From: Verrucomicrobiota bacterium
GTDB taxonomy: Bacteria; Verrucomicrobiota; Verrucomicrobiia; Chthoniobacterales; JAFAMB01
Length of the DNA: 41,037 nt
Direction: 5' to 3'
Assembly (NCBI GenBank): GCA_019247695.1
Contig: JAFBAP010000130.1
Coordinates: 1 to 41,037, forward strand
The notes below the pieces were generated by a model. It did not search any database. It had not been told where the DNA came from and saw nothing but the letters and a program-made list of their open reading frames with translations. Position numbers and translations under genes: made by a program. Of the stretch, positions 3,098-40,906 are shown piece after piece (within the stretch, counting starts at the first letter, position 1; every line of letters starts with the position of its first letter).

Positions 3098-4621
3098 GTG
3101 AAGATAACATTATCCACCCGAAAGGGCCTTGCCGTGGCTGGGTTCCTAACCGCGTTGGCGGTCAGCCCCACGTTTGCGACCGATCAAGCCCTGCTTGATG
3201 CTTTGGTCCGCAAAGGCGTGTTAACCGACAAAGAAGCCCAGCAAATCGAGGCGGAGGTTTCCAAGGAACCTGCGACGCCTGCTCCTGACCTCGGGAGCAA
3301 GATCAAGCTGGGCGATTGGGTCAAGGAGCTCAAGATCTACGGCGACATCCGGCTACGTGGCCAGTACGATGTCGAGCAGCCGCAGATTCCCTCCGCCCCG
3401 CGCCAGACTGACTATCCCAACGAGTTCCAACGCTGGCGCTGGCGTTTCCGCCTGCGGCTCAACGCCGACGTGCAACTCGCCGGCGGCTGGTTTGCCGGGT
3501 TCGGCCTGCAGACGAATAATGCGTCCGATTCAGCCAATCAGACCTTTACCCAAGGATTCGACAACTACAACATCTACATCAACAAAGCCTTCATCGGTTA
3601 CAGCCCGGTTGACGGCATCACGGCGATCGCCGGCAAGCAGGCCAACCCCTTCTACACCACCGACCTGTTCTGGGACCCGGACATTTTCCCGCAAGGGCTG
3701 GTCGAGCGGATAGACTTCCACAAGCTCTTTAACCTGAGTTTCGGTGAGCCGGATTACAGTAAGGAGGGCAAAGCCCCGGTGGCTCCGCCGCCTGAGGGAC
3801 CCCGGAACGCGCTTGAGTTGTCGCTGATTGCCGGGCAGTTCATCTTCTACGACAATAACGAGTTCAACGAGGTTACGGCGGCAACCGGCAACATCAAAAA
3901 CGACGCGTACGAGTTCGAGACTCAGTTGCTGACGCGGCTGAAACTGGGCAACGGCTTCAGCGTCACGCTGGCGCCCGCCGTGTTCATCACGAATGACGCC
4001 GAAGTCGGTTCGGCCGGCAACCCGGCCATCGCGCTCAACAACACCCTGGCGTTCAACGGCACCCAGCGCGACGAACTCATCCTGCTGGCGCCTGGTGATA
4101 TCAGCTTCAAGATCGGCAAGCTGCCGGTAAAGCTGTACTGGGACTTTGCCTATAACACGAACGGCAACGACCGCTGGAACAGCGTGTACGGGCCGCTGTT
4201 CAGCGCCGTGACGTACAACGCCGCGCGTACCGCCGTGACCGGTTTCCCGGCAGCCAACCGGTGGAGTCCTTCGTTCTCGGATAACCTCGCATGGCTGATC
4301 GGGATCCAGTTCGGCCAGAACAAGAAGCAAGGTGACTGGTCGATCTTCGGCAACTTCCGCCAGATCGGTCTGACGTCGATCGATCCGAACATCAACGACT
4401 CGGATTTCGCGCTAAGCAACCTGAACATGCAAGGGTTCAAGTTCGGCCTGGCGTATAACCTGACGGACTACGCGGTGTTTGCCGTGACCGGCTACATCAC
4501 CTGGAACCTGACGGAGAACCTCTACGGCGGGGCGGCGAACACCCCGAGCAACCTGCGGGCCGGCATCGCCCAGGACACCACGGCTGACACCGTACAGGTC
4601 GACCTGAACGTGCAGTTCTGA
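3098..4621 (+). CDS. Putative outer-membrane porin, paralogue 1
   Basis: 507 residues, exported beta-barrel. Start is a GTG at 3098. A signal peptide follows, with a likely cut after A27 (PTFA/TDQ). Residues ~28-55 form a short helical segment with the K-G-(V/I)-L-(T/S)-x-K-E-A pattern reminiscent of SHOCT-like motifs. From residue ~70 (LKIYGDIRLRGQYD) alternating-residue strands rich in Tyr, Asn and Asp continue to the end, and the chain ends in Phe (DLNVQF), the usual BAM recognition feature of barrels. It closely matches the protein at 6575-8107 along its whole length, for example in the shared block GLVERIDFHKLFNLSFGE. Family knowledge assigns it as a putative porin; the substrate is unknown. 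Confidence 0.88.
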   Translation: MKITLSTRKGLAVAGFLTALAVSPTFATDQALLDALVRKGVLTDKEAQQIEAEVSKEPATPAPDLGSKIKLGDWVKELKIYGDIRLRGQYDVEQPQIPSAPRQTDYPNEFQRWRWRFRLRLNADVQLAGGWFAGFGLQTNNASDSANQTFTQGFDNYNIYINKAFIGYSPVDGITAIAGKQANPFYTTDLFWDPDIFPQGLVERIDFHKLFNLSFGEPDYSKEGKAPVAPPPEGPRNALELSLIAGQFIFYDNNEFNEVTAATGNIKNDAYEFETQLLTRLKLGNGFSVTLAPAVFITNDAEVGSAGNPAIALNNTLAFNGTQRDELILLAPGDISFKIGKLPVKLYWDFAYNTNGNDRWNSVYGPLFSAVTYNAARTAVTGFPAANRWSPSFSDNLAWLIGIQFGQNKKQGDWSIFGNFRQIGLTSIDPNINDSDFALSNLNMQGFKFGLAYNLTDYAVFAVTGYITWNLTENLYGGAANTPSNLRAGIAQDTTADTVQVDLNVQF

Positions 4622-6574: not shown

Positions 6575-8107
6575 ATGACCCGAAAGAGTATCCCTGCATG
6601 GGCGCTGTTGGCCCTGCTCTCCCTGACAGCCCCTCCCCTGCACGCCCAACAGGATCAAGCGTTGATCGATGCGCTTGTCCGCAAGGGGATCCTTTCCCAA
6701 AAGGAGGCTGAGCAGATCCAGGCCGAAGTCGAAAAGGAGGCCGATCAAACCCCTGCGCCTCCACAGAACAAAATCAAAATCGGCGACTGGGTCGACGAAT
6801 TGAGACTTTCCGGCGAAATTCGCCTCCGCAACCAGTGGGACGACAGCACTCCCCAACTGCCGAAGGCGCCCCGGCAGACCACCTATACCAACCACTCGCA
6901 GCGCGACCGGTGGCGCTTCCGCCTGCGCCTGAATGCCGACTTCAAGCTCAAGGGCAACTTTTTCGGCGGTGTCCAGTTGAGCACTTCCCAAAACGGCGCG
7001 ACCGATTCCTCCAATCAGACCCTGGGACAAGGCTTCGACAATTATAGCATCTACATCACCCGCGCGTTCCTTGGATGGGCACCGGCGGATGGTTTAACCT
7101 TCGTCGGCGGCAAGCAGCCAAATCCCTTTTACACCACCGAAATGGTTTGGGATCCGAACGTTAACCCCCAAGGGCTGGTCGAGCGCATCGACTTTCACAA
7201 ACTTTTTAATTTGAGCTTCGGTGAATCGAGTTACGCCAAAGACGGTAAGGCACCGGCCGCGCCGCCACCTGAGAAACCGGCCAACGCGCTCGAAGTCAGT
7301 TTGATCGCCGGTCAGTTCATTTTTTTCGACAATAACGAGTCTAACCTGGTCACGAGCGGCACGGGCCGCGTTAATCAGGACGCCTACCTGTTCGAAACCC
7401 AGTTGCTGACCCGGCTGAAGCTCGGCAAAGCGCTCGCCATCACGGTGGCTCCCGCCCTGTTTGTCACCAACGATTCGGTGGCGGGCCTGGCCGGCAACCC
7501 ACCCATTGCGTTGCAGAACACGCAGCCTTTCCAGGGACCGACCCGTGACCAACTCATCCTCCTGGCCCCCGGCGACGTGAGTTTCCTGATCGGCAAGATC
7601 CCCGTCAAGGCCTACTGGGACCTGGCCTACAACTTCAGCGGCGACGACCGCTGGAATAACGAATACGGCCCGCTGTACAGCAACGTAACCTTCAACCGGG
7701 CCGGGACCGCAATCACGGGTTTTCCCGCAGCAAATCGCATCGGACCTTCGTTCTCCGACAACTTTGCCTATGAGGTCGGAGTCAAAATCGGTGAGAACAA
7801 AAAGCAGGGCGATTTTGCGATCTTTGGTGATTGGCGGCAAGTTGGCCTGACGTCGGTCGACCCGAACCTAAATACGCCCGACTTCGCCTTGAGCAGCCTT
7901 AACACTCAAGGGATTCGGTTAGGTCTGGCCTACAATGTCACCGACTACGCGACGTTCGCCGTAACCTGGTACCACTCCTGGGCTTTGACCCGCAACCTCT
8001 TTGGCGGTGCAGCCACCGGCACCATTCCCGCTTCGACCATCAATAACAGCATCGCGCCGTTTAACCACGTTGACGTGCTGCAGGTAGATTTCCTGGTGAA
8101 CTTCTAA
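6575..8107 (+). CDS. Putative outer-membrane porin, paralogue 2
   Basis: 510 residues. The ATG at 6575 has a purine-rich ribosome binding site (GAGAGAAG, 8 bases upstream) and opens on a clear signal peptide cleaved near A24 (LHA/QQD). Residues ~27-52 repeat the helical segment of paralogue 1 (ALIDALVRKGILSQKEAEQI). The barrel follows from about residue 75 and ends in Phe (DFLVNF). Conserved blocks shared with paralogue 1 include NPFYTT, GLVERIDFHKLFNLSFGE and SLIAGQFIF-DNNE. The pair probably arose by duplication and may differ in loop specificity or expression. Confidence 0.9.
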   Translation: MTRKSIPAWALLALLSLTAPPLHAQQDQALIDALVRKGILSQKEAEQIQAEVEKEADQTPAPPQNKIKIGDWVDELRLSGEIRLRNQWDDSTPQLPKAPRQTTYTNHSQRDRWRFRLRLNADFKLKGNFFGGVQLSTSQNGATDSSNQTLGQGFDNYSIYITRAFLGWAPADGLTFVGGKQPNPFYTTEMVWDPNVNPQGLVERIDFHKLFNLSFGESSYAKDGKAPAAPPPEKPANALEVSLIAGQFIFFDNNESNLVTSGTGRVNQDAYLFETQLLTRLKLGKALAITVAPALFVTNDSVAGLAGNPPIALQNTQPFQGPTRDQLILLAPGDVSFLIGKIPVKAYWDLAYNFSGDDRWNNEYGPLYSNVTFNRAGTAITGFPAANRIGPSFSDNFAYEVGVKIGENKKQGDFAIFGDWRQVGLTSVDPNLNTPDFALSSLNTQGIRLGLAYNVTDYATFAVTWYHSWALTRNLFGGAATGTIPASTINNSIAPFNHVDVLQVDFLVNF

Positions 8108-28653: not shown

Positions 28654-29640
28654 TCAGTTGGGCGAGGCACCCTCCGCTTCCTGCAGTTCGGCCCGGACGG
28701 CGTCTACCATCATTCGGGCAACGTCCGCCATCCGGTACCTCGGCCGCCAGTTCAGGATGGCGGCGGCTTTGCCGGCGTCGCCTCGTCCAAACATGAGTTC
28801 CGTGGGACGATAAAGGTCGCCGTTAATGACGAGGTGATCCTCCAGTTTCAGGCCGGCGTGCTCAAAGGCCACCCTGGCAAACGTCTCGAGCTTTTCACTT
28901 TGGCCGGTCGCAATTACGAAATCCTGCGGTGTGTCGATCTGGAGCATCCGATGCATGGCATCGACGTACTCAGGCGCCCAGCCCCAATCCCGTCGGATTT
29001 CGACGTTTCCCAGGACGAGGGATTTTTGCCGGCCCGCGGCGATCCGGGTGGCCGCCGCTACAATTTTCTTGGTGACGAACCGCTCCGGCCGGAATGGGGA
29101 CTCATGGTTAAAGAGGATTCCCGAGCAGGCAAAGAGCCCGTACGCTTCCCGATAATTGGCCACTTGCCAGTAGGCGGCGGATCTGGCAACCGCGTACGGA
29201 CTTCGGGGATGAAACGGTGTATTTTCGTCTGCCGCCTGTCCGTGTAAATCCCCGAAACACTCGCCGGAGCCTGCGTTGTAGAAACGAATTGGTTTCCCGG
29301 TAAAGCGGATGGCTTCCAGGAGGGTGAGGGTCGCGCCGTAAATGCTTTCCTGCGTTTCGACCGGCTGTTCAAATGATAACGCAACTGACGATTGGCCCGC
29401 CAAATGATATACCTCCTCCGGTTCAAACTTGAACAGAACTTGGAGCACACTGCGAAAATCGTTCAAAGCAACGGAGGCATATTGGATTCGGTCCCGGATT
29501 CCCAGCCGATGAAGGTTATGGAAAGTGGCAACCTGGGCATCACGCGACGCGCCGCAAACCCAGTAACCTTTGTCCAGAAGCAGTTTCGCCAGATAGGCAC
29601 CATCCTGGCCGGAGATACCGGTGATCAAGGCCCGTTTCAT
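28654..29640 (-). CDS. gmd: GDP-mannose 4,6-dehydratase-like NDP-sugar epimerase/dehydratase
   Basis: 328 residues, extended short-chain dehydrogenase. The NADP-binding G-x-x-G-x-x-G is G8-I-S-G11-Q-D-G14. Gmd-specific blocks are present: YHLAGQSSVALSFEQPVET, NYREAYGLFACSGILFNHES, FVTKKI, RDWGWAPEYVDAMHRML and DFVIATG. Gmd makes GDP-4-keto-6-deoxymannose, the precursor of GDP-D-rhamnose, GDP-fucose and perosamine. Two active-site positions differ from E. coli: YxxxK is Y149-x-x-x-R153 (SPYAVARSAAYW), and the T-S-E motif reads S125-G-E127. No RMD, fucose synthase or perosamine synthase gene is visible nearby, so the final sugar is unknown. It is divergent from the GT4 gene at 29796. Confidence 0.85.
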   Translation of the reverse strand: MKRALITGISGQDGAYLAKLLLDKGYWVCGASRDAQVATFHNLHRLGIRDRIQYASVALNDFRSVLQVLFKFEPEEVYHLAGQSSVALSFEQPVETQESIYGATLTLLEAIRFTGKPIRFYNAGSGECFGDLHGQAADENTPFHPRSPYAVARSAAYWQVANYREAYGLFACSGILFNHESPFRPERFVTKKIVAAATRIAAGRQKSLVLGNVEIRRDWGWAPEYVDAMHRMLQIDTPQDFVIATGQSEKLETFARVAFEHAGLKLEDHLVINGDLYRPTELMFGRGDAGKAAAILNWRPRYRMADVARMMVDAVRAELQEAEGASPN

Positions 29641-29795
29641 ACAACGCTAGGTAATCAACAATGCAAATAAGCGCAATATGGAAGGAAACATCAACGCGGA
29701 TCGCTTATAGGATCGAAGAAAGTGATGCTGTCTGAGTCCGGGCGCGAATTGCTGGCTTGGCAATCATCAATCCTTCTTTGTTAAGAGGAGAGTCA

Positions 29796-31118
29796 ATGCG
29801 TGTGGAACCGTTTCCAGGTAAACCTTGCCATTCATGCGGCCGGGATCGGCCCGTACGGGTGGGCGTTGACCTAACCCCAATGCTCCCCGGCGCGGCCAAC
29901 GGGGGCATTAAATTCGCAATTCTGCAACTTCTGGAAGGTCTGCTGGAGCGTTATCGCGATCAGATCCGGCTTACGCTGTTTGTGCCCGAAATCACCCGCC
30001 AGGAACTTGCGGCGCGTTTTGAAAACCGCACGGGGTTTCACTGCACTCGCGCCGGGCGACGACGGGGTTCTCTCTTGCGGGAAGCTTGCCGGGAGGTCCG
30101 AAGCCAGTCGATCATCCGGCGACTCGCGAGGCGCGAGAAACTCGATGTGCTTTATTCCCCGTTCGGCCGTCATCTGCCGGTTCCGGCGAACGTCTGCCTG
30201 GTTGCCTTGATTATGGACCTGCTGCATGAAGACTACCCGAAAAGTCTTACCTGGAAGGATCGTTTTTGGCGCCGATTGAACCTCAGGAAATTAGCTTTCA
30301 GCCGCGCCCGGTTTCAGGTACCGTCCGAGTTCACCCGGCAACGTCTCAAGGCTGTATACCGGATTCCGTACGCACGAACCTTCCGGACGTACTTGCTGAT
30401 CCATGAGCGGCTTGGCCCCGGACGGAGATTTCAAGCCGCGCCATTCTTTTTCTACCCTGCAAGGCCGTGGAAGCACAAGAACCAGCAAACCCTCCTGCGC
30501 GCTTTTCGGCTTTATCGGGAACGGGCCGGGACCGATGCGTGGCGTCTGGTGTTGATTGCAGGCGACGATCAACGTGCGGCTAACCTCAAACGACTGGCCG
30601 CTGAGTTGGAACTGAGCGACCACGTGGATTTTACCGGAGACGTCAATGAAGAGCAACTGGCCGGTTACTATCGAAGCGCTGCAGCCCTGGTGTTTCCATC
30701 GTATTACGAAGGATTTGGGATTCCGTTACTCGAAGCCATGCATTTTGGCCTGCCGATCATCTGCGGTCGCGGCGGCAGCCAAACGGAAGTTGCGGGTGCG
30801 GCAGCGCTTTATGTTGACGTTGACAGTGTTGAAGAACTCGCCGGGGCGATGCGGCGGATTTCGTGCGACGCAGATCTGCGACAACGCCTGGCTCACTGCG
30901 GTCAGCGGCAATTGGCCCGGTTTGTCTGGCGGTCGGAGGTGCAAACGTTGGCGGATGCGTTCAGACAGGCTTCGGATGCACCCGCCGGCCACCCGGGCGG
31001 ATGTGTAATTCGCCAGATTTTCCTGGTTGGGTTTGACTTGATTTATGCCTTGGTGGTGGTATTAGCGGCGGTCCGTGATCTGGCAAAGCCGAAAAACCGG
31101 GGCTCCCCCACGGGCTGA
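29796..31118 (+). CDS. Glycosyltransferase family 4 protein
   Basis: 440 residues. The ATG at 29796 has a strong Shine-Dalgarno (AAGAGGAGAG, about six bases upstream), which decides it over the earlier in-frame ATG at 29757. GT-B fold: N lobe VRVGVDLTPMLPGAANGGIK, then donor lobe FFYPARPWKHKNQQTLLRAF, VLIAGDD, HVDFTGDVNEEQLAGYYRSA and E-x7-E in PSYYEGFGIPLLEAMHFG. Such GT4 enzymes transfer a sugar from an NDP donor. The last ~35 residues contain a hydrophobic segment (IFLVGFDLIYALVVVLAAV) that may associate with the membrane. The methyltransferase starts 24 bases downstream; they form an operon. Confidence 0.88.
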   Translation: MRVEPFPGKPCHSCGRDRPVRVGVDLTPMLPGAANGGIKFAILQLLEGLLERYRDQIRLTLFVPEITRQELAARFENRTGFHCTRAGRRRGSLLREACREVRSQSIIRRLARREKLDVLYSPFGRHLPVPANVCLVALIMDLLHEDYPKSLTWKDRFWRRLNLRKLAFSRARFQVPSEFTRQRLKAVYRIPYARTFRTYLLIHERLGPGRRFQAAPFFFYPARPWKHKNQQTLLRAFRLYRERAGTDAWRLVLIAGDDQRAANLKRLAAELELSDHVDFTGDVNEEQLAGYYRSAAALVFPSYYEGFGIPLLEAMHFGLPIICGRGGSQTEVAGAAALYVDVDSVEELAGAMRRISCDADLRQRLAHCGQRQLARFVWRSEVQTLADAFRQASDAPAGHPGGCVIRQIFLVGFDLIYALVVVLAAVRDLAKPKNRGSPTG

Positions 31119-31141: not shown

Positions 31142-31975
31142 ATGTTAACAGGACTGATCGCATATACAAGGACTGCCCTCCTGTACCGCCTGTTGCGAGG
31201 TCGTTGGGTGACTCGAGAGGCTTTGCAACAATTCTCCGGCGATAGTCCCGAAAACGTCGCCTGGAAACTCCTGTTGAGTGCAGAAGGACTGGAACGCTGT
31301 TGCAATCTCAGTCTTGAACTTCATCTCCATTTTATTCACAACGCTCGCCTTAAAGTCGTTCGCACGTTGCTTCCACCCGGGGATGTCATCCTTGATTTAG
31401 GGGGTGCCTATTCACCTTTGTACCGGATGGGTTACCCTCACCCGTTCAAGAAACTTGTGCTGATTGATCTTCCTCCGGAACGACGGCACCAGGAATTCAG
31501 AAGGGTTGAACTCGAACGCCACAGCCGCGGAGGCGAGATTTCGATCTTATACGCCGATATGAGCGAACTTTCAGGCATCGACGATGGCAGCGTCGACCTG
31601 GTTTGGGCCGGTCAAGTGATTGAGCATTTGTCGCCTGAGACCGGCCGCCGCATGAGTCAGCACGTCTTTCGAGTGCTGCGTCGTGGTGGATCCTTTTGCC
31701 TCGATACGCCAAACGGCTTACTCTCGTCGATGCATGCAGCCACCGCCGGGAAAAGGATGATTCACCCCGACCATAAGATCGAGTACGGGCCATCCGATCT
31801 CCGTCGCATGCTAAAAGCCTGCGGCTTCGACATCGCCGTCGAGAAAGGCCTCTGTCACATGGTGCGCACGTTGCGGTCCGGACAATTCTCGTATGAAGAC
31901 TTCATTTTTGGAAATCCGATTGCTGATGAGGTCGAAGACTCTTACTTGCAGTATTATCAATGCGTGAAACCCTGA
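31142..31975 (+). CDS. SAM-dependent class I methyltransferase
   Basis: 277 residues. Motif I is VILDLGGAYSPLYRMGY (strand beta-1 and the glycine loop), the acidic end of beta-2 is LVLIDLP, and motif IV/post-I are SVDLVWAGQVIEHLSPETGR and RVLRRGGSFCLDTPNGL. The fold is that of Methyltransf_11/23-like enzymes. N-terminal ~70 residues form a helical cap with weak hydrophobicity. It is co-transcribed with the GT4 gene, so methylation of a glycan, either along the chain or at its non-reducing end, is the natural guess. A hairpin follows three bases after the stop codon. Confidence 0.85.
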   Translation: MLTGLIAYTRTALLYRLLRGRWVTREALQQFSGDSPENVAWKLLLSAEGLERCCNLSLELHLHFIHNARLKVVRTLLPPGDVILDLGGAYSPLYRMGYPHPFKKLVLIDLPPERRHQEFRRVELERHSRGGEISILYADMSELSGIDDGSVDLVWAGQVIEHLSPETGRRMSQHVFRVLRRGGSFCLDTPNGLLSSMHAATAGKRMIHPDHKIEYGPSDLRRMLKACGFDIAVEKGLCHMVRTLRSGQFSYEDFIFGNPIADEVEDSYLQYYQCVKP

Positions 31976-32112: not shown

Positions 32113-35100
32113 TCATGGCCGGGGCATGTGGTCCGCGCCAGGCCACCACTTGTACCATCGAGCGTCGAGCACCATTTTAATCAGCTGACGGCTGCTCTCG
32201 CACCAGGTCAGCCATTTGATTCCGTGAGGCTTGGGGATCCGTTCGCCGAGAGCCAGCCAGGTGCGCAGGGCATCGGCAAGCCTGTCCGGCTCGCGGCCAT
32301 GGAAATAGTACGCGTGTTCACCGGCTACTTCCTGAAAAACCGGGATTGCCCGAGCAATAATTGGCAGCCCGTAGCAGGCGGCTTCAATCAGCGGCAGGCC
32401 GAAGCCTTCCCCCTCTGAGGCGGCGAGCAGTCCGCGAGCACGGCGGTAGATCTGTTCGAGCAACTCATCGCTTGCTGCCTGGAGCCAGAACAGGCGCGTG
32501 CCGTGTTGGGGGTGCACACGGATTTCCGCCGCAAGGTCCTCGATCATCCATCCCTGGTTGCCGACGATTACCAAACTTGCCTCGACGCCGTCTGCCCACA
32601 GGCGCTCCATAGCCCGAAGGGCCTGACGGTGACCTTTGCGCGGCTCCAAAGTGCCTACCATCAAAAAGGCGGGATAACGTGCAATCCTGGAAAAAAGCGC
32701 CGGCGCATCCGGCGGAAGTTCCGTGCTGGGCAGACTGGCGCGCAGGTCCCCGCCCAGATGAGAAAAGCCGATCGGGAACCGGCGGACGGGCGGTGAGTCC
32801 GCGCGAGCCAGCCAGTCATAAAGTTCGTCGGCAACGGTGCGCGAGTCACACACGATCCCGTCCGCGATTTCGACCAGCGCGCTGAGCCAGTTAGCCATCA
32901 GCGGCCCGACGGCTGGAAGAAAGACCTCCGGCCGAAGCAGAGGTAGAATGTCATAGACCATGAACACGGTTCGTAATCCCCGGTGGCGCTGCTTCGAAAA
33001 CCAGCCTTTCAAGGTAGGTAAGACGTCAGGGCACCAATCGATTCCAAGGAACAGATCGCCTGAGCCCACCTCCACCGGATCGTCCTCCAGGCCCGCGTCG
33101 GGTAGATCAAGGCACCGGGATGTGAACCGGCGAGCGTAAAGGTATTGATCAGCAACCGCTCGAACCGGCTCGACCCGATACTTGTCCGGCGGGTTTGCGA
33201 TGATGGCCATCGCCATGGCTCGAGTCACGCGCTGGATGCCGGTCCGGAGATCCGACGCCGCAACGTGCGTCACGTCGATCAGGATCTGGGGCCGCCCAAG
33301 CCGCTCCCGGTTGCCCGCAATTGCGACGGCGGTTGCCGCCAGGTCCGTGGCGGCCGGCCGAATCGGCGCGAGATAATGCCCGATCGCCTCCACCAGCGAT
33401 TGCTCCCGCGCCGAGGGACTGTCTGCGTAGAAGTGCTCGATTGCCTCCCGGTAAAGGTCGGCCACGCGTTCCGGGTGATGCGTCCTGCGCACGTACAGCT
33501 GACCCTCGACGACGAGTTTCTGCCGGAGGTAGGGATCGGATTTCATCAAAACCAGCGCGTCGGATAACCGGGCATCACTGAACTGGTCCGGAAGCTTCAG
33601 GACCACTTCGTCAGGAAGCTCCGGTACCGCGCCGTGCGCGTTAACCACGAGCGGCACGCCGCCGCGTAAACAGTCGAAGATAGCGGCCGAGGTCTCGCCC
33701 CTGCTGCCGGTTCGAAGTTGTACGGCGATGTCGGCGGAAGCCAGGTAATCGCGGTATCGATCCTCGTCCACGTAATCTGTGATCGTGATCCGCGAACCTG
33801 CCTCACACTGCGCAATCCGCTCCAAGAGCCGTTTACCATAGTCGCCGCCCTCGTTACCGCCGACGAAAATCAATCGAGACGTCTCGTCCGCTGCAAGCGG
33901 TGAGTCAAGCCAGGCGTTGAGCAATCGATCGTTGAGTTTGCACGGTGCGATCCAGCCGAAGCTGCAAACGAGGAAGGCGCTGTCCGGTAAACCCAACCTC
34001 GCACGCGCGGCTTTACGTTGGCAGGCCTCAGGAGGAAAAGGCAGGAAGTCTACCCGGCGGAAACGCGTGGCCATTTGCTCTCCATAACACTGCCGGGCGT
34101 AGTCAATGGCGTGTTGCGAGTGAACGATCACGCCGACGCTCTCCTGCAAGACCTGCGCGTTGCACGGGTAGGCGTTAACCGTTTCGGCCGGATTCTCTTT
34201 CAGGTGGTCGAAGCATGAGAATCCATGCGCTGCATAGAGCGCGTTGACGAAGGCATTTCCGGCGTAGCCGGTCTCCTCCATCCACTTTAACAGCGAACTC
34301 AGGTAAAAGTCGTGCAGCGTCACCACGCCAGGGTGCCGGGCCAGCAGATCGAACATGTGTTTGTGCGCCGGCGAGTTCCCGAAGTGGTAGAGCACGCGAT
34401 CAAACTTACCCGCGTTCAGTTCAAACCATCGGATGTCGCGAATGGCGAATCCGGCCACGACCCATGGGTCGGTGACTTCGGCCTGATCCACGATACAGGT
34501 GATTTCATAGTGGCGGGCAAGGTACGGCAATAAGCGGGCGGCGTAACCGGCAATCCCGCTCCGGACCGGAGGTAAAGGCGAAAGGAAGGCCAATCGAAGG
34601 GGACATTTTCCATCGGCAAATGAGACTCTCGACCCACGTTGCGCCTGCGACTTTGCCGCCAGCGCTTCGAACGACTGCAGGGCGGTGGCGGCGCTGGCGT
34701 TCCAGGTAAACGCCCTGGCCCTATCTAAGCCCCAAAGGGAGAGGCTTTGCCGGAATTTGCTATCCGTTAAAACTTCATTGAGCCGGGTTGCAATCTGTTT
34801 CGGCCGGTGCGGGTCAAACAACGCATCCTCACGGTTGATGATCTCCGAGACGCTCGTAAGGTTGGAGCCGATCACCGGGGCTCCACAAGCCATGGCTTCA
34901 ACCGCGGGAAGTCCGAATCCTTCATGAAGCGACGGCAACACAAAAGCGATGCAGGTGCTATAAAGCAAAAGGAGTTGTTGGTCTGACACGTACCCGACGC
35001 TGATTACTTCATCGTGCGCCAATTCTCTCTTACGTTTCAAAAAGGCAAGGCGCCGGACCTCGTCGGGTTGGAGGTCGCCGATGAGCGCCAACTGGCAAGC

Positions 35101-35868
35101 CGCTCTCACGCATTTTGGCAATGACGAATATGCTTCGAGAAGTCCCTCCAGGTTTTTGCGAGGTTCGAGGCCTCCCGCGTATAGGAGAAACGGCCGCTGC
35201 AAGCCAAAAGCCGCCATCAACGATGCTTTGTCTTCGGTGGAGACTTCAACTCGTTTGAAAAACGGAGACACGCCAGCCGAAATGTTGACGATGCGTTCAT
35301 CTGGGATTTGCAGTGCTTCAATCGCCTCGTTGCGCGACGCCTCAGAGATCGTCAGGATCAAATCGGCCCGCCTGAGCGACTGCATACGCCGCGCGTAAAT
35401 GGCCCTGAAGGCGGGGCTCTGCAGGTATTTTTGCGGGTTCAGCAAAGGGATTAGATCGTACAAGGTTACGGCGGTAGGCACCCCGGCGTGCAACCGGCCG
35501 ATCGAGGCGACAACCTCGTTGTGAAATCCCTCGAATAACGTTGAGGCATGCACGATGTCGGGACGCAAGCCGGCCAGAAAATTTTCGCGCACCAGTTCTG
35601 CCGCGTGCGCGCGCCAAGCGTTTGCGGGGTCAAGTTCAGCGACCGGCCCAGGCAATTCGAAAATGCGAATTCGCTCCGGAGGAACCAATCCGGCAAAGGC
35701 GTCACGGAGCGGATCAAGGGACTCCGGGAAGCGGCCGCTCAGGGCCAGCCAGACTTCGTGCCGCCCTGCTCCGGCGACGATGGCTTGCGCCAGGGCCAGC
35801 GAGTATCGGCCGATTCCGCGAAAGCGGCTATCACTTTGTGCGCCTTGCAGGTCCAGAACAATTCTCAC
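32113..35868 (-). CDS. Giant glycosyltransferase with three GT-B domains
   Basis: 1251 residues, about three times a normal GT4 enzyme. Domain 1 (~1-410): MRIVLDLQGAQ, FRGIGRYS, LLYAGGLEPRKNLEGLLEAY and E-x7-E in LHEGFGLPAVEAMACG. Domain 2 (~420-840): LRLAFLSPLPPVRSGIAGYA, FGWIAPCKLND, and RGETSAAIFDCLRGGVPLVV, where E-x7-E is modified. Domain 3 (~860-1245): ILIDVTHVAASDLRTGIQRV, MVGTLEPRKGHRQAL and EGEGFGLPLIEAACYG. The arrangement recalls multidomain polymerases such as E. coli WbdA, which build mannose repeat units with different linkages. A GTG start at 35868 is preceded by AAGGAGGT about 13 bases upstream. It is the last gene of the wzm-wzt operon, so it probably assembles the exported chain in the cytoplasm. 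Confidence 0.88.
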   Translation of the reverse strand: MRIVLDLQGAQSDSRFRGIGRYSLALAQAIVAGAGRHEVWLALSGRFPESLDPLRDAFAGLVPPERIRIFELPGPVAELDPANAWRAHAAELVRENFLAGLRPDIVHASTLFEGFHNEVVASIGRLHAGVPTAVTLYDLIPLLNPQKYLQSPAFRAIYARRMQSLRRADLILTISEASRNEAIEALQIPDERIVNISAGVSPFFKRVEVSTEDKASLMAAFGLQRPFLLYAGGLEPRKNLEGLLEAYSSLPKCVRAACQLALIGDLQPDEVRRLAFLKRKRELAHDEVISVGYVSDQQLLLLYSTCIAFVLPSLHEGFGLPAVEAMACGAPVIGSNLTSVSEIINREDALFDPHRPKQIATRLNEVLTDSKFRQSLSLWGLDRARAFTWNASAATALQSFEALAAKSQAQRGSRVSFADGKCPLRLAFLSPLPPVRSGIAGYAARLLPYLARHYEITCIVDQAEVTDPWVVAGFAIRDIRWFELNAGKFDRVLYHFGNSPAHKHMFDLLARHPGVVTLHDFYLSSLLKWMEETGYAGNAFVNALYAAHGFSCFDHLKENPAETVNAYPCNAQVLQESVGVIVHSQHAIDYARQCYGEQMATRFRRVDFLPFPPEACQRKAARARLGLPDSAFLVCSFGWIAPCKLNDRLLNAWLDSPLAADETSRLIFVGGNEGGDYGKRLLERIAQCEAGSRITITDYVDEDRYRDYLASADIAVQLRTGSRGETSAAIFDCLRGGVPLVVNAHGAVPELPDEVVLKLPDQFSDARLSDALVLMKSDPYLRQKLVVEGQLYVRRTHHPERVADLYREAIEHFYADSPSAREQSLVEAIGHYLAPIRPAATDLAATAVAIAGNRERLGRPQILIDVTHVAASDLRTGIQRVTRAMAMAIIANPPDKYRVEPVRAVADQYLYARRFTSRCLDLPDAGLEDDPVEVGSGDLFLGIDWCPDVLPTLKGWFSKQRHRGLRTVFMVYDILPLLRPEVFLPAVGPLMANWLSALVEIADGIVCDSRTVADELYDWLARADSPPVRRFPIGFSHLGGDLRASLPSTELPPDAPALFSRIARYPAFLMVGTLEPRKGHRQALRAMERLWADGVEASLVIVGNQGWMIEDLAAEIRVHPQHGTRLFWLQAASDELLEQIYRRARGLLAASEGEGFGLPLIEAACYGLPIIARAIPVFQEVAGEHAYYFHGREPDRLADALRTWLALGERIPKPHGIKWLTWCESSRQLIKMVLDARWYKWWPGADHMPRP

Positions 35869-35874
35869 CGGATA

Positions 35875-36306
35875 TCAGTTGACCTCCTTGCTCCTGGTCA
35901 CGGCAGCCTCTAACCTGCGAAAGATCGGACGCGCCGAGGCCGGCAAAACCGCTGAGATATCGGCGTCCATCCCGGTATTCGGCCCCGCGCCGCCGGTGCG
36001 GCTGGAGGCGGCAGAGCGGGCCTCGGACGGGTGGTCATCATCGGCAGAAACATCACCGGCCGCAGGCATTGCCGTGCCCGGAATGACGTCGTGAAGAGAG
36101 GCGGCCGTGTTCGGGGATAACCGCACGAACCTGGGCACGAGAGCGGCAAGCGGCGGATGGTTCACTAATACCCGCCTTCCCAGGGCCCGTAGCCCGCCCC
36201 CGGTGAGTTGATCACCGGCGACTCGAAGTCTCTGAAAGAGGCGCCGCATCATTCTGGACTGACTGGTGAGTTCTTCGCCCAAACGCCCGATCATCACGTC
36301 TCTCAT
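35875..36306 (-). CDS. Unknown protein between wzt and the triple glycosyltransferase
   Basis: 143 residues from the ATG at 36306, 10 bases after the wzt stop and six bases before the glycosyltransferase start, so tightly coupled in the operon. Residues 1-50 are basic and amphipathic-helical (MRDVMIGRLGEELTSQSRMM, RRLFQRLRVAG). The middle (~75-125) is disordered and Asp/Ser/Gly-rich, and the end is again helical (PASARPIFRRLEAAVTRSKE). No signal peptide, no transmembrane segment and no recognised family. Position suggests a partner of the exporter or the polymerase, such as an anchor or chain-length factor; that is only inference. Confidence 0.62.
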   Translation of the reverse strand: MRDVMIGRLGEELTSQSRMMRRLFQRLRVAGDQLTGGGLRALGRRVLVNHPPLAALVPRFVRLSPNTAASLHDVIPGTAMPAAGDVSADDDHPSEARSAASSRTGGAGPNTGMDADISAVLPASARPIFRRLEAAVTRSKEVN

Positions 36307-36316
36307 GTTCGTTTCT

Positions 36317-37138
36317 TCAAGTATCGTCAACCCGTGCAGCGTCCTGCCGGGACCCGGTTGCACGGGTAGTTTCCTTTTCATAAGCGGAGACAACCTCCGG
36401 GGTCGGACCGAACATTTCGATGCGGCCGCGCTTCAGCCAAAGGCACACCTGGCTCATCCGCCGGACGTGCCCCAATCCATGACTAACCACGATCGCCGCG
36501 TGACCCTCGTTGATGATTTCCTCGATGCGCTTGAAACATTTTTGTTGAAATGCGGCATCTCCCACGGCGAGAACTTCATCTAAAATCACGATCTCCGGGT
36601 TGAGATGCGCTGCGACCGAAAACGCCAGTCGCACGTACATACCGCTCGAGTAGTTCTTAACCGGGACGTCGATGAACTCGCGAATTCCGGAAAACTCGAC
36701 GATTGGATCAAATCGGGCGCGGATCTCTTTTCGGGAAAGCCCGAGCATTGCGCCGTTGAGATAAATGTTATCCCGACCCGAAAATTCAGGGTGAAACCCG
36801 GTTCCCACCTCAAGGAGACTGGCCACCCGGCCATAAACTTTCACGGTGCCAATGGTCGGTTGGGTGATCCTGGACAGGATCTTTACTAACGTCGACTTAC
36901 CGGCACCGTTCTCACCGATGATCGCCAGGGTTTGTCCCTGCGAGACCTGGAACGAGACATCCCGAAGCGCCCAGAAGTGGCGCTTCGGGTTCACGTCGCC
37001 GATCATTTGGCTCGGATGAAGCAACCGGCGGAGTCTGTGCATCGCGTCCAAGGTAATATCCTCAAAAAACGCCTTCTGGTTGCGCTCCCCCAGGAAAAAG
37101 CATTTCGAAAGGTGAGAAGCCTCGATAATGGCAGGCAT
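36317..37138 (-). CDS. wzt: Polysaccharide ABC transporter ATP-binding protein (Wzt-type)
   Basis: 273 residues. The ATG at 37138 shares one base with the wzm stop (TGATG), which fixes the start; the frame is open upstream only through wzm. Walker A is GENGAGKS (75-82), the signature is [12 protein letters not shown], Walker B is [12 protein letters not shown] and the H-loop is VVSHGLGHV. The N-terminal extension with [20 protein letters not shown] is typical of polysaccharide exporters. The C-terminus ends ~25 residues after the H-loop region, so the carbohydrate-binding domain of long Wzt proteins (O8/O9a type) is missing. It powers export of a lipid-linked polysaccharide with Wzm. Confidence 0.93.
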
Positions 37139-37980
37139 CAAATCGAGTCGGTGAAGGTGCCTTCGGCCCGCATGAAACGCCAGAGTCCCGCCGCCAAAAT
37201 TATGAGGATAATCAGCGCGGCGATCAAGGCGGGCTGGGCGGGGGCGTGTTCCGTCCCGAAAAGGCTCGACCGGTAACACTCGACCACGCTTGCCATCGGG
37301 TTCAGCAGGAGTAAACCTTGCAGGTGGTCCGGAACCGACGACCGTGGATAAATCACCAGGCTGCCGTACATCCAGAGTTGCAGCGTGTATCCAACGATGA
37401 TGTTCAAGTCCCGGTACCTGACCGTCGCCGACGCGATCAGACAGCCCAGGCCGAGGGCCAAGCCGGCCATTTCCAGGAGCCAGAGCGGAAGCAACGCAAT
37501 CCGGGGGCTGAGGTCGACCTTGGCGCCGCCGAGTTTACAGGCGGCAACGACCAGCAAAAGGGTCAGCAACTGAGCCAGGAAATTCAGTAGATTCATGCTG
37601 ATCTGGCTTAACGGGATCACCAACCGCGGGAAATAAATCTTCCGGAAGAGGCCACCGCTGCCGAGAAAGGTATAGGCAACCTGCGACAAACTGTTTGCGA
37701 AAAAGCTCCAGGCGATAATCCCGGACATGTAGAAGACGAGCGGCGGCAAGTCGCTCGTGGGGAGCCGGGCGATCTGGCCGAAAACCACGACGTAAACCAG
37801 GGCCGCAAGGAACGGCTGGAAGAAAAACCAGAGCGGACCCAGCACGGTTTGCTTGTATGCCGCCACAAAATCCCGTTTGACGAGGAGGATGAACAACTCG
37901 CGGTAATTCCATAACTCCCTCGGATGACTGCTGAGCAGGCTGCCGGCATCGACAACATAAGTCGGCTTTCGAACGCTCAT
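37138..37980 (-). CDS. wzm: Polysaccharide ABC transporter permease (Wzm-type, ABC2 family)
   Basis: 280 residues with six predicted membrane segments. The N-terminal amphipathic element [20 protein letters not shown] and [20 protein letters not shown] is the ABC-2 permease signature for O-antigen, teichoic acid and capsule exporters. Further segments include [18 protein letters not shown] and [20 protein letters not shown]. The C-terminal [12 protein letters not shown] is the usual end of this family. It is first in the operon wzm-wzt-unknown-triple GT. It forms the membrane channel for the glycan in the inner membrane. Confidence 0.93.
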
Positions 37981-38225
37981 TTGTCATTGGGCCAGGACGC
38001 CATCGAAGGACGTCGTTCGTCGATGGAAATCCGGGGACACTCGGGTACTGGACTCATAACTTTTCGCAGGCGTACAGAGGCGATGTACCCTTCAAAAACC
38101 GTTCCTGTAAAGCCTGAATTTGGCGACCTGTTTGCGCCGATGCTTGCCGGCAGATTGTGGTTGTGCTTGTACTCTGGACAGCGAAGACGGGCTGTGCGAT
38201 CACTGGGGCCGGTTTTCGGTTGGTT

Positions 38226-39635
38226 ATGCTGTTCACCGCACCTGTTTTCCTGTTTTTCTTTCTGCCGGCGTTCCTGGCACTTTACTTCGCGCTGCGCGGC
38301 CGACGAAACGCGGTGATACTGGCCGGCAGCCTGTTTTTCTACGCCTGGGCTGAACCGCGGTTTATTTTTTGGGTGCTTAGCTCCGCGGTGCTGGATTGGT
38401 GGCTAAGCCGCCTGATCGCGGGTGCACCCCGCCAAAGCGCCAAACGTGCCTGGCTGACGACGGGCATCACCGCTAATTTAGCCCTGCTTTTGTGGTTTAA
38501 GTATGCCAATTTCCTCTACGGGAGTTTGCTGGCAATGTGCGCCAGGGCCGGCATCGGCCCACCGCCGCTGGCCCACATTGCGCTGCCTATCGCGATCTCA
38601 TTTATCGTTTTTGAGAAGATCACCTACCTGGTTGATGTGTACCGTAGGGTGGCCAATCCGGCCAACGATATCTTCAGCTATCTGACCTACGTGTTCTTTT
38701 TTCCCAAGCTGCTGGCCGGACCGATCATTCGTTATCACGACATCGAGCCCCAGTTCCACACGCGGGCGATTTCCTGGGAATCGATGCGTTCAGGCATTGC
38801 CCGCTTCGTGCTGGGCATGGGCAAAAAAGTATTGATTGCCGATTATGTCAGTCGAATCAGTGATCAAGCCTTCCAGCTTCAGCCGGAGCAACTCGACACC
38901 TGCACGGCCTGGCTGGGTGTTCTTTGCTTCACCATCCAGATTTATTTCGACTTTTCCGGCTATTCCGACATGGCGATCGGCCTCGGTCGCATGCTTGGTT
39001 TCCGCCTCAGGGAAAACTTCTGCAACCCCTACATCGCCGAAAATTTTACTGACTTCTGGCGCCGCTGGCACATCAGCCTGTCGAACTGGATTCGTGAGTA
39101 TCTGTATATTCCTCTCGGCGGAAACCGAAAAGGTTCGACCCGGACGTATATAAATCTCTGCACGTGTTTCGTGCTTTCGGGGCTCTGGCACGGCGCCGCC
39201 TGGCATTTTGTCATCTGGGGCGCGTTTCACGGAATGATGCTTATGGCCGACCGGTTATTTTGGAGGGATCTTCAGCGGCACGTGCCGAGGCCGGCCAATG
39301 TGGCCATAACGTTTTTCCTGGTCATGATGAGCTGGGTCGTTTTTCGCTGCGACTCGTTCCGTCAGGCTGAAAACTACTTCATCGCCCTGTTTGTTCCCGG
39401 CAGGAGTGCTCCGAACCTGGTCTGGGTGAGCCCGGATATCGCGCTTATGCTCACGATGGGATTGCTGATTTCGTTTGCGCCGCTGCTGCCGCGATTTATG
39501 CAGTTGCAGAACGTCTATGGCGCTCTTCGGTGGAGGCCGCTGGCCGAACTCCTGGCGTGCTTTCCGGTGTTTCTCATTGCACTCGCCAAAGTCTCAGTGA
39601 GTTCGTTTCAGAGTTTCATTTACTTCAGGTTTTAA
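38226..39635 (+). CDS. MBOAT family O-acyltransferase (AlgI-like)
   Basis: 469 residues from the ATG at 38226; the frame is open back to 38157. Multi-pass membrane protein. The N-terminus (MLFTAPVFLFFFLPAFLALY) and SLFFYAWAEPRFIFW are typical of AlgI/DltB-type MBOATs. FWRRWHISLSNWIREYLYIP and GGNRKG follow at ~277-303, and the catalytic His is H322 in LSGLWHGAAWHFVIWG. The family moves acetyl groups across the inner membrane for O-acetylation of exported polysaccharides. The partner SGNH-like gene begins 14 bases downstream. It is divergent from wzm, so acetylation of the exported glycan is a reasonable inference. Confidence 0.92.
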   Translation: MLFTAPVFLFFFLPAFLALYFALRGRRNAVILAGSLFFYAWAEPRFIFWVLSSAVLDWWLSRLIAGAPRQSAKRAWLTTGITANLALLLWFKYANFLYGSLLAMCARAGIGPPPLAHIALPIAISFIVFEKITYLVDVYRRVANPANDIFSYLTYVFFFPKLLAGPIIRYHDIEPQFHTRAISWESMRSGIARFVLGMGKKVLIADYVSRISDQAFQLQPEQLDTCTAWLGVLCFTIQIYFDFSGYSDMAIGLGRMLGFRLRENFCNPYIAENFTDFWRRWHISLSNWIREYLYIPLGGNRKGSTRTYINLCTCFVLSGLWHGAAWHFVIWGAFHGMMLMADRLFWRDLQRHVPRPANVAITFFLVMMSWVVFRCDSFRQAENYFIALFVPGRSAPNLVWVSPDIALMLTMGLLISFAPLLPRFMQLQNVYGALRWRPLAELLACFPVFLIALAKVSVSSFQSFIYFRF

Positions 39636-39649
39636 CCGGCCCGCGTGAA

Positions 39650-40906
39650 ATGCGTTTAATCGAGAAAATCCTTGTGACGCTGTTTCTGGTACTGCTCGGA
39701 ATCCCCGGCATCCTGGGATTGGCGTTCAGCAGCATACCCGGCCTGCCCCTGGAATGGAGGTGGCTGCAAAACGGTAGCCTGGCAGGGGTCCGGCAAGAGC
39801 TTAAGCCCACCCGCCTTACTTCGAAAAGCTGGTTCCGGACGGCGTTTCAGGAATTCGCCACGAAAAAAGCGAGTGAAACGTTTTTCGGACGCGACATGCT
39901 GATCCGAAGTCTGAATGAGGTGCTCTATCGAGGGTTCCGCAAATCGTACATGAGCGGCGAGACGCTGATCGTCGGCAACCACCGCGACTTATTCCAACTG
40001 CATTACCTCGCTTACTTCGGACACCTCGCCCCGAGCGCTTCGGAGGGATACCTGCAACACCTTACTGACGACATCGTTGCGGCCCGGCAACGTTTCCGGC
40101 GGCTGGGTTCTGAGATCATCGTTATGATCACCCCAAGCAAGACCAGCCTTTATCCGGAGGATGTACCTGATCGGTTTCGGGCGCATCCAGGTAAGGATGC
40201 CGCGACTCCGGCCGGCTATCGTCGTCTGGCCGCGCTTCTACAGCAAAAAGGCGTTCCGCTGGTTGATGGACGGGCGCTGAGCCTGCAACGCGTGCACGAG
40301 CTTCCGGGTCGTGGATTTGCGAAAACGGGGATCCACTGGACCTACCCGCTTGCCTGTTTCACCGTCCAGGCAGTTTTGGATGAACTTGGCCGGTTGAAAG
40401 GAACGCGGTACGCTTCGATCGAGCAGAGAAACCTGCGGGTTGATCACTCGCCTGAAGGGGTTGACCAGGACCTTTTCTCGCTGTTAAACCTTCTGGAAAG
40501 GCCAAAGGAATCCTACCTCCATGCGGACTTCAGGGTCAGCGACGAGCAGGCCGCCCGTCCGCATTCGCTGACGTTTGTCGGCGGCAGTTTCACCCATGAA
40601 ATCATCGAGGTAATCGAGCGTTCCAGGGCCGCCGGTCACGTTGCTTACTACAATTATTTTGATACGTTCGTCGAGCATTGGCCCGAGCAATCGCTCGTCC
40701 AAAGACCGGAGGTTGCACAGATCCCCTGGGAGCGCGATTTTGCGCGTGCAGACGCCGTTGTGCTTGAAGTGAATGAAGCGGCGATCGTGTCCTCCTCTCA
40801 CCTGACTCGCTTCCTTCAAGCCGCGCCGGAGTACCTTGAGCGAGTGCGGCCGGAAGCACGTCCTGACTTGACGGTTGGCGCCGTCCGTGAAGATCTGTCA
40901 CGATAA
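39650..40906 (+). CDS. AlgJ/AlgX-like SGNH O-acetyltransferase partner of the MBOAT protein
   Basis: 418 residues. An N-terminal membrane anchor (LIEKILVTLFLVLLGIPGIL) places the rest in the periplasm. The fold matches AlgJ/AlgX: IIVMITPSKTSLYPEDVPDR, GIHWTYPLACF at 227-237, and the nucleophile motif FVGGSFTHEII with S313. In AlgX and AlgJ the His belongs to D-x-H-W; here the Asp position is G227, so the triad acid must come from elsewhere or activity is changed. It takes acetyl groups from the MBOAT partner and places them on the glycan. The ATG at 39650 is preferred because it opens the anchor helix; earlier codons overlap the MBOAT gene. Confidence 0.82.
   Translation: MRLIEKILVTLFLVLLGIPGILGLAFSSIPGLPLEWRWLQNGSLAGVRQELKPTRLTSKSWFRTAFQEFATKKASETFFGRDMLIRSLNEVLYRGFRKSYMSGETLIVGNHRDLFQLHYLAYFGHLAPSASEGYLQHLTDDIVAARQRFRRLGSEIIVMITPSKTSLYPEDVPDRFRAHPGKDAATPAGYRRLAALLQQKGVPLVDGRALSLQRVHELPGRGFAKTGIHWTYPLACFTVQAVLDELGRLKGTRYASIEQRNLRVDHSPEGVDQDLFSLLNLLERPKESYLHADFRVSDEQAARPHSLTFVGGSFTHEIIEVIERSRAAGHVAYYNYFDTFVEHWPEQSLVQRPEVAQIPWERDFARADAVVLEVNEAAIVSSSHLTRFLQAAPEYLERVRPEARPDLTVGAVREDLSR

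Follow-up and report, generated by a model that had tools for sequence, protein, structure and literature searches.

The 143-residue protein P0001, encoded between wzt and a WbdA-like polymerase gene in the 41,037-nucleotide stretch of DNA from a soil bacterium (Verrucomicrobiota bacterium) analysed here (the window), is a genuine gene product, conserved as part of a WbdA-type polysaccharide operon. Sequence comparisons suggest that, on balance, it is probably the C-terminal module of WbdD-type chain terminators occurring as a separate protein, serving as a membrane anchor for the polymerase without either the cap or the ruler. Computation established its position, its conservation in three relatives, and the similarity of its module profile to the tails of proteins found in the same slot elsewhere, WbdD being reached by way of intermediates. 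The operon and its surroundings comprise the following features, in window positions:

37138 to 37980, minus strand: Wzm-like ABC-2 permease (PF01061)
36317 to 37138, minus strand: Wzt, ABC ATPase, 273 residues from the likely start, no Wzt_C match
35875 to 36306, minus strand: P0001, 143-residue stand-alone module, ATG at 36306, stop codon ending at 35875
35882 to 35889, minus strand: SD-like sequence AAGGAGGT of the polymerase gene, within the last codons of P0001, read from the sequence
32113 to 35868, minus strand: WbdA-like polymerase P0002, three GT4 domains, 1251 residues, start GTG at 35868
31142 to 31975, plus strand: class I methyltransferase on the opposite strand, by eye with no coiled coil
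29757 to 31118, plus strand: GT4 glycosyltransferase, in this region and also on the opposite strand
28654 to 29640, minus strand: GDP-mannose 4,6-dehydratase-like sugar gene (PF16363), downstream

The order on the minus strand is Wzm-like permease, Wzt, P0001 and three-GT4 polymerase, with spacers of 10 bases between the end of wzt at 36317 and P0001 and of six bases between P0001 and the glycosyltransferase start at 35868, exactly as laid out in the original prediction made from the letters of the DNA alone. Since the SD-like sequence of the polymerase gene lies within the last codons of P0001, translation of the two is probably coupled. The openness of the frame is in itself weak evidence, because open runs of at least 143 codons on that strand occurred in 2894 of 20000 first-order Markov sequences, and the evidence that counts is conservation. 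Beside wzm, on the other strand, lies a gene pair for an MBOAT O-acyltransferase and an AlgX-like protein (38157-39635 and 39530-40906), probably engaged in acylation of the polysaccharide; two Porin_5 genes occur in one stretch of the window (3098-4621 and 6575-8107).

P0002 was identified as a multi-domain GT4 protein similar to WbdA by its 37% identity to an annotated O9a-type WbdA over residues 1-408 and 41% over 841-1231. When plasmid records were searched with P0002, 28 gave a match at E up to 1e-60, nine of them (including Novosphingobium, Rhizobium, Jannaschia and Azospirillum) covering at least 80% of the query; annotated wbdA genes matched it in pieces. The O9a-type record was ordered wzm, wzt, a methyltransferase protein matching WbdD PDB chains, and wbdA; the order in a Klebsiella record was identical, the slot gene being annotated WbdD, and an O8-type Serratia record contained wzm, wzt, a methyltransferase and a glycosyltransferase. 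Azospirillum, Peteryoungia and Marivivens each presented a permease, an ATPase, an FkbM methyltransferase and a glycosyltransferase, and Pseudomonas ANT_H62 a permease, an ATPase, an 88-residue hypothetical protein (L129:6733-6999) and a glycosyltransferase. These matching gene orders indicate that P0001, positioned between wzt and a WbdA-type polymerase as WbdD terminators are, occupies the WbdD slot.

A separate observation concerns E. coli plasmid NZ_CP022158.1, in which a 153-base unit encoding 51 residues is repeated without change 3.1 times in the WbdD coiled coil (L128:5919-6387), the protein having 810 residues as against the 708 given for the published O9a WbdD in PMC3482155; the repeat represents a natural lengthening of the ruler, for which longer chains are predicted.

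Four of 147 related genomes gave a match to the polymerase at E 1e-100 or below. The upstream side can be seen for four orthologous polymerases (in the window, on contig C278 of G003, on contig C439 of G005, and for a partial gene on contig C46 of G002), and the module precedes all four; in three it is a small protein, and in the fourth it is part of a fusion. G003 and G002, which belong to the same family as the window's genome, encode proteins of 154 and 147 residues respectively between Wzt and the polymerase, the slot order wzm-wzt-X-GT being common to all three; Pfam returned nothing for either small protein. The G005 protein directly before the polymerase has 806 residues, with the module fused behind an FkbM methyltransferase (PF05050, E 5.5e-26) in the order FkbM, 14-residue repeats, the GDRLTGGGIR helix in tandem (a 69-base repeat, 2.1 copies), a middle part and the end LPASARSTYLQLR. 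The 14-residue units, each of two heptads, are encoded by nine copies of a 42-base repeat (L094:4956-5335) and are coiled-coil-like; a ruler so built could lengthen or shorten in unit steps. At L092:1483-1809 on the same G003 contig, the C-terminal part of a 586-residue protein was 38% identical to the middle of the G005 slot protein, at E 5.9e-12, and the two may possess a domain common to polysaccharide-locus proteins.

Smith-Waterman comparison of P0001 with its counterparts in G003, G002 and G005 (the last query consisting of two joined pieces of one protein) gave z values of 13.9, 11.9 and 12.1, with 0 of 1000 shuffles in each case. Residues identical across the three small proteins include G31, T35-G38, R40, A41, R45, L47, P51 and L53, and towards the C-terminus L121, S124-R126, L132, A134 and A135. 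Upstream of the G003 polymerase paralogue (C72), around 250 to 320 bases separate a divergent gene from the likely start, and open reading frames of at least 40 residues there were unlike the module by eye; the upstream side of the G005 paralogue (C354) ends at the contig end. The three relatives with the operon all have a homologue, and the accepted homologues are located in polysaccharide loci directly before the polymerase, so the function in the same process that had been argued from operon position is supported.

Searches with single sequences and early alignments were also conducted more widely. With P0001 as the query, a cut-off of E 1 gave matches in 48 of 97 genomes, one of them its own; the matches in G003 (4.1e-5), G005 (0.004) and G002 (0.007) are real by synteny, and the others were treated as chance. 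A P0001 contig search returned 255 pattern stretches with no relative among them, and a search with the three-row alignment 61 stretches at two loci, namely the G003 and G002 contigs themselves. The G003 protein matched 31 of 197 genomes at E up to 0.1, the best match outside G000, G002, G003 and G005 (5.9e-4) containing two internal stops. Within the class, alignment A1 matched 6 of 384 at an E cut-off of 0.01 (G000, G003 and four more, the best at 7.3e-5 with an internal stop); within the phylum it matched 23 of 288 at a cut-off of 0.1 (G000 plus 22 more, the best at 0.002). Of 117 genomes, 14 were matched by alignment A3 at an E cut-off of 0.01, the fused G005 protein being missed. The 17 matched stretches comprised the three known proteins and 14 more, 12 of which fell within profile positions 2-44, the coiled-coil-end region, for which reason they were not counted. 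Plasmid tblastn matches in Gemmatirosa (E 0.4) and Methylobacterium (E 3) were rejected as out of context, the C-terminal part of the G005 protein gave no plasmid match, and the Rhizobium tail and the Pseudomonas 88-residue protein as queries returned self-matches only. Within the window's genome, the one tail match at E up to 0.01 was P0001 itself, and six FkbM matches were all on other contigs. No account of such a stand-alone protein was found by title or abstract in the open-access papers searched.

Tail homology was assessed by profile ranking in both directions. The three small verrucomicrobial proteins were made into a profile which, when run against 3144 stop-to-stop frames of at least 40 residues from 19 proteobacterial plasmid loci (an earlier run having covered 11 loci and 2179 frames), placed slot proteins in all top four positions: Rhizobium CB3090 (2.2e-5; residues 391-450 of a 468-codon frame), Marivivens (0.037), the Pseudomonas 88-residue protein (0.039) and Peteryoungia (0.29). 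As only Rhizobium CB3090 was significant alone, it is the ranking that constitutes the evidence. Slot proteins were absent from the first four positions with 38 of 40 column-permuted profiles; one of the remaining two had a single slot protein there and the other had two, and the best E of any permuted profile was 0.016. The slot list consisted of 14 proteins, five of the 19 loci being left out: Formicincola (glycosyltransferase start at the record end), Paraburkholderia (TPR protein upstream, a differing slot), A. thermophilum, Pseudomonas R124, and Acidisoma (long FkbM protein before the glycosyltransferase; profile E 0.13). The slot proteins of Jannaschia, Novosphingobium and Sphingobium were missed by the profile, and that of Rhodovastum was reached only at E 0.43.

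In the reverse test, ten proteobacterial tails ranked the G003 (3.6e-5) and G002 (0.005) proteins first of 1326 verrucomicrobial frames, with P0001 seventh (E 1.9) and second among window frames. Once G003 and G002 were included with the proteobacterial tails, P0001 was first of 604 window frames (E 7.8e-4, the next being 0.17); with block 1 (defined below) dropped, it was still first of the window frames with that profile (E 0.039), and fifth (E 4.9) with the proteobacterial tails alone. A WbdD-free profile of verrucomicrobial, alphaproteobacterial and Pseudomonas sequences found WbdD tails as its first untrained matches (Klebsiella 2.8e-7, O8 type 1.3e-6, O9a type 6e-4), part of this signal arising from a coiled-coil-end block (SxSWRLTxPLR) not clearly common to the small proteins. 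With that block removed, three WbdD tails were still the first untrained matches, at 4.8e-5 (602-694), 0.025 (389-482) and 0.39 (761-849), of which only the Klebsiella tail was significant by itself. Used by themselves as a profile, the three WbdD tails found none of the verrucomicrobial proteins, and there was no direct significant match between P0001 and WbdD, the apparent relation being a chain through intermediates; among PDB chains, none matched the tail profile below E 0.77.

The absence of a direct match, together with the lack of any Pfam or NCBIfam match for P0001 and the short, biased nature of the sequences, would suit a lineage-specific small protein unrelated to WbdD, its tail similarity reflecting convergence of short basic helices beside polymerases. 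We consider this quite improbable, given that the rank tests in both directions picked slot proteins from among thousands of frames, that permuted profiles mostly failed, and that a fused form exists in G005.

A signature near the C-terminus ([AV]xx[ILVTY][YFL]xx[LM], looked for in the last 30 residues) was present in all four verrucomicrobial and seven of 14 proteobacterial slot proteins as against 17 of 455 other frames of at least 150 residues, a count that is descriptive rather than an independent test, because the pattern was composed after these related sequences had been viewed. Hypothetical proteins of Novosphingobium (149 residues, L124:6552-7001) and Sphingobium (143 residues, L131:6570-7001) overlap the start of a WbdA-like glycosyltransferase gene by one base; the former ends in a similar motif, yet the profile misses both.

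Within P0001, three blocks were recognised:

36166 to 36234, minus strand: block 1, residues 25-47 (RLRVAGDQLTGGGLRALGRRVLV), basic helix common to the verrucomicrobial members (alignments A1 and A2; coordinates counted by hand from the ATG)
36112 to 36159, minus strand: block 2, residues 50-65 (HPPLAALVPRFVRLSP), corresponding in shortened form to the HPxL helix of other tails (alignment A3; predicted helix 51-62)
35899 to 35952, minus strand: block 3, residues 119-136 (AVLPASARPIFRRLEAAV), C-terminal helix and proposed polymerase-binding part (alignments, motif count, best-scored helix)

The AlphaFold2 model built from three sequences was of low confidence (mean pLDDT 55.7, pTM 0.22), as was a second (three sequences, mean pLDDT 55.3) in which the expected helices were also present. 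In the former, low-confidence model, helices were predicted at residues 3-35, 38-49, 51-62, 117-120 and 123-142, with 63-116 devoid of regular structure, the C-terminal helix being the best part (block means 81 and 76). This agrees with the basic helices, disordered centre and helical tail originally described, the amphipathic signal being modest in that the best 18-residue hydrophobic moment of 0.69 was reached by 12 of 200 shuffles. Neither Pfam nor NCBIfam gave a family match for P0001 at E up to 1, and the longest helix in the low-confidence model has 33 residues; the suggestion that P0001 might be a length ruler gained no support from these results, whereas a membrane-surface anchor or scaffold for the polymerase is, from the sequence evidence, probably what it is. 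Nor is it the wholly new component that had been envisaged, since it probably corresponds to the tail of WbdD-type terminators, the only region of theirs that has counterparts in P0001.

Among the copies of the module, P0001 has diverged most, with part of the hydrophobic helix of block 2 missing and an unstructured middle, and a long form is still present in G005. These features, and the location of the polymerase SD-like sequence inside P0001, would fit a decaying remnant of an ancestral terminator that lost its enzyme and ruler, the tail being retained mainly for the polymerase ribosome-binding site and hence translational coupling. Such decay seems unlikely, for the small forms in three genomes keep the same blocks, the C-terminal helix most clearly, and a stand-alone 88-residue form exists in Pseudomonas.

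The preferred reading of P0001 as a free anchor entails that its basic N-terminal helices would rest against the cytoplasmic membrane on its inner side, and that its C-terminal helix would bind the WbdA-like polymerase encoded by the next gene and keep it beside the Wzm-Wzt exporter, with no methyltransferase, kinase or coiled-coil ruler attached. Membrane binding, polymerase binding and the absence of capping are what we infer for this system. The window Wzt lacked a Wzt_C match at E up to 1, and at 0.01 from its likely start; it therefore has no detectable C-terminal carbohydrate-binding domain of the kind associated with terminator-coupled export, and unterminated chains would probably be exported, their length being set by the balance between polymerase and exporter. 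In Klebsiella systems, export is described as limited to terminated chains recognised by the Wzt domain (PMC11231755), and some ABC systems are described as exporting unmodified chains whose length is set by stoichiometry (PMC6286764). These descriptions and the Wzt result together point to a terminator-free reading, which is not a clean rule. Indeed, a rule that the lack of a terminator accompanies the lack of Wzt_C was rejected, since G003 combines a weak Wzt_C (5.5e-5, below the cut-off) with a slot protein without enzyme. G003 and G002 both have a longer Wzt and an enzyme-free slot protein, and the Wzt of G002 gave no Wzt_C match at 0.01. In G005 the enzyme is present together with a weak Wzt_C (8.5e-4), and Pseudomonas ANT_H62 has a strong Wzt_C.

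This Pseudomonas system, with its strong Wzt_C, small slot protein and a methyltransferase downstream of the glycosyltransferase, bears on whether P0001 could instead be the anchor of a two-protein WbdD, the chain being capped by a separately encoded methyltransferase. The ANT_H62 enzyme (L129:9983-11077) carries tandem RRELLEQISTN-type repeats of coiled-coil-like appearance ahead of its enzyme domain, and is possibly a terminator with the coiled coil at the other end; it is one cap candidate, the other, perhaps, being the class I methyltransferase near the window operon (31142-31975), a possible separate cap enzyme. For P0001 a split terminator is nonetheless rather unlikely, the window methyltransferase being on the other strand and by eye without a coiled coil, and the window Wzt giving no Wzt_C match.

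If P0001 is indeed a free anchor, it may be that tethering is separable from capping and measuring, terminator-free ABC export retaining the WbdD-type tail as a free adaptor that brings a WbdA-type polymerase to the membrane and exporter, a generalisation that we advance tentatively. Were it true, such free adaptors would make up a class of small proteins so far without annotation, spread over several phyla (Verrucomicrobiota, Pseudomonas and perhaps sphingomonads). The three jobs of WbdD (tether, ruler and cap) have been studied in one protein, and a natural tether-only protein would show that recruitment matters alone; it raises the question of whether capping of chains can disappear while tethering stays. 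A P0001-type protein would also provide a small construct for solving the tail-polymerase interface, and the 'hypothetical protein' that recurs ahead of WbdA-like genes would become a component open to testing.

Comparison with WbdD itself (E. coli O9a/O8 type and Klebsiella) reveals the same slot between wzt and a WbdA-type polymerase, and tail blocks that rank first among untrained frames. The WbdD tail is described as containing a membrane helix and a polymerase-recruitment site (PMC11231755; tail function also in PMC3482155, PMC3447403 and PMC5082667), its C-terminal domain being given as structurally uncharacterised in a 2018 review (PMC6286764), and its ruler as an extended coiled coil with the capping enzyme at the far end (PMC11231755, PMC5082667). 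By way of difference, WbdD has a methyltransferase (plus a kinase in O9a) and a coiled-coil ruler, and P0001 has none of these: at 143 residues and with no Pfam or NCBIfam match it includes no N-terminal methyltransferase or kinase, and its longest helix, in a model of low confidence, falls short of an extended coiled coil. The proteins combining FkbM, coiled coil and tail before WbdA-like glycosyltransferases (Rhizobium CB3090, Peteryoungia and Marivivens, and G005) share the slot and tail similarity with P0001, and differ in having the enzyme and coiled coil attached. The 88-residue protein of Pseudomonas ANT_H62 is shorter than P0001 and accompanied by a Wzt with a strong Wzt_C, but like P0001 it stands alone between an ABC ATPase and a WbdA-like glycosyltransferase, and it is matched by the verrucomicrobial profile at E 0.039.
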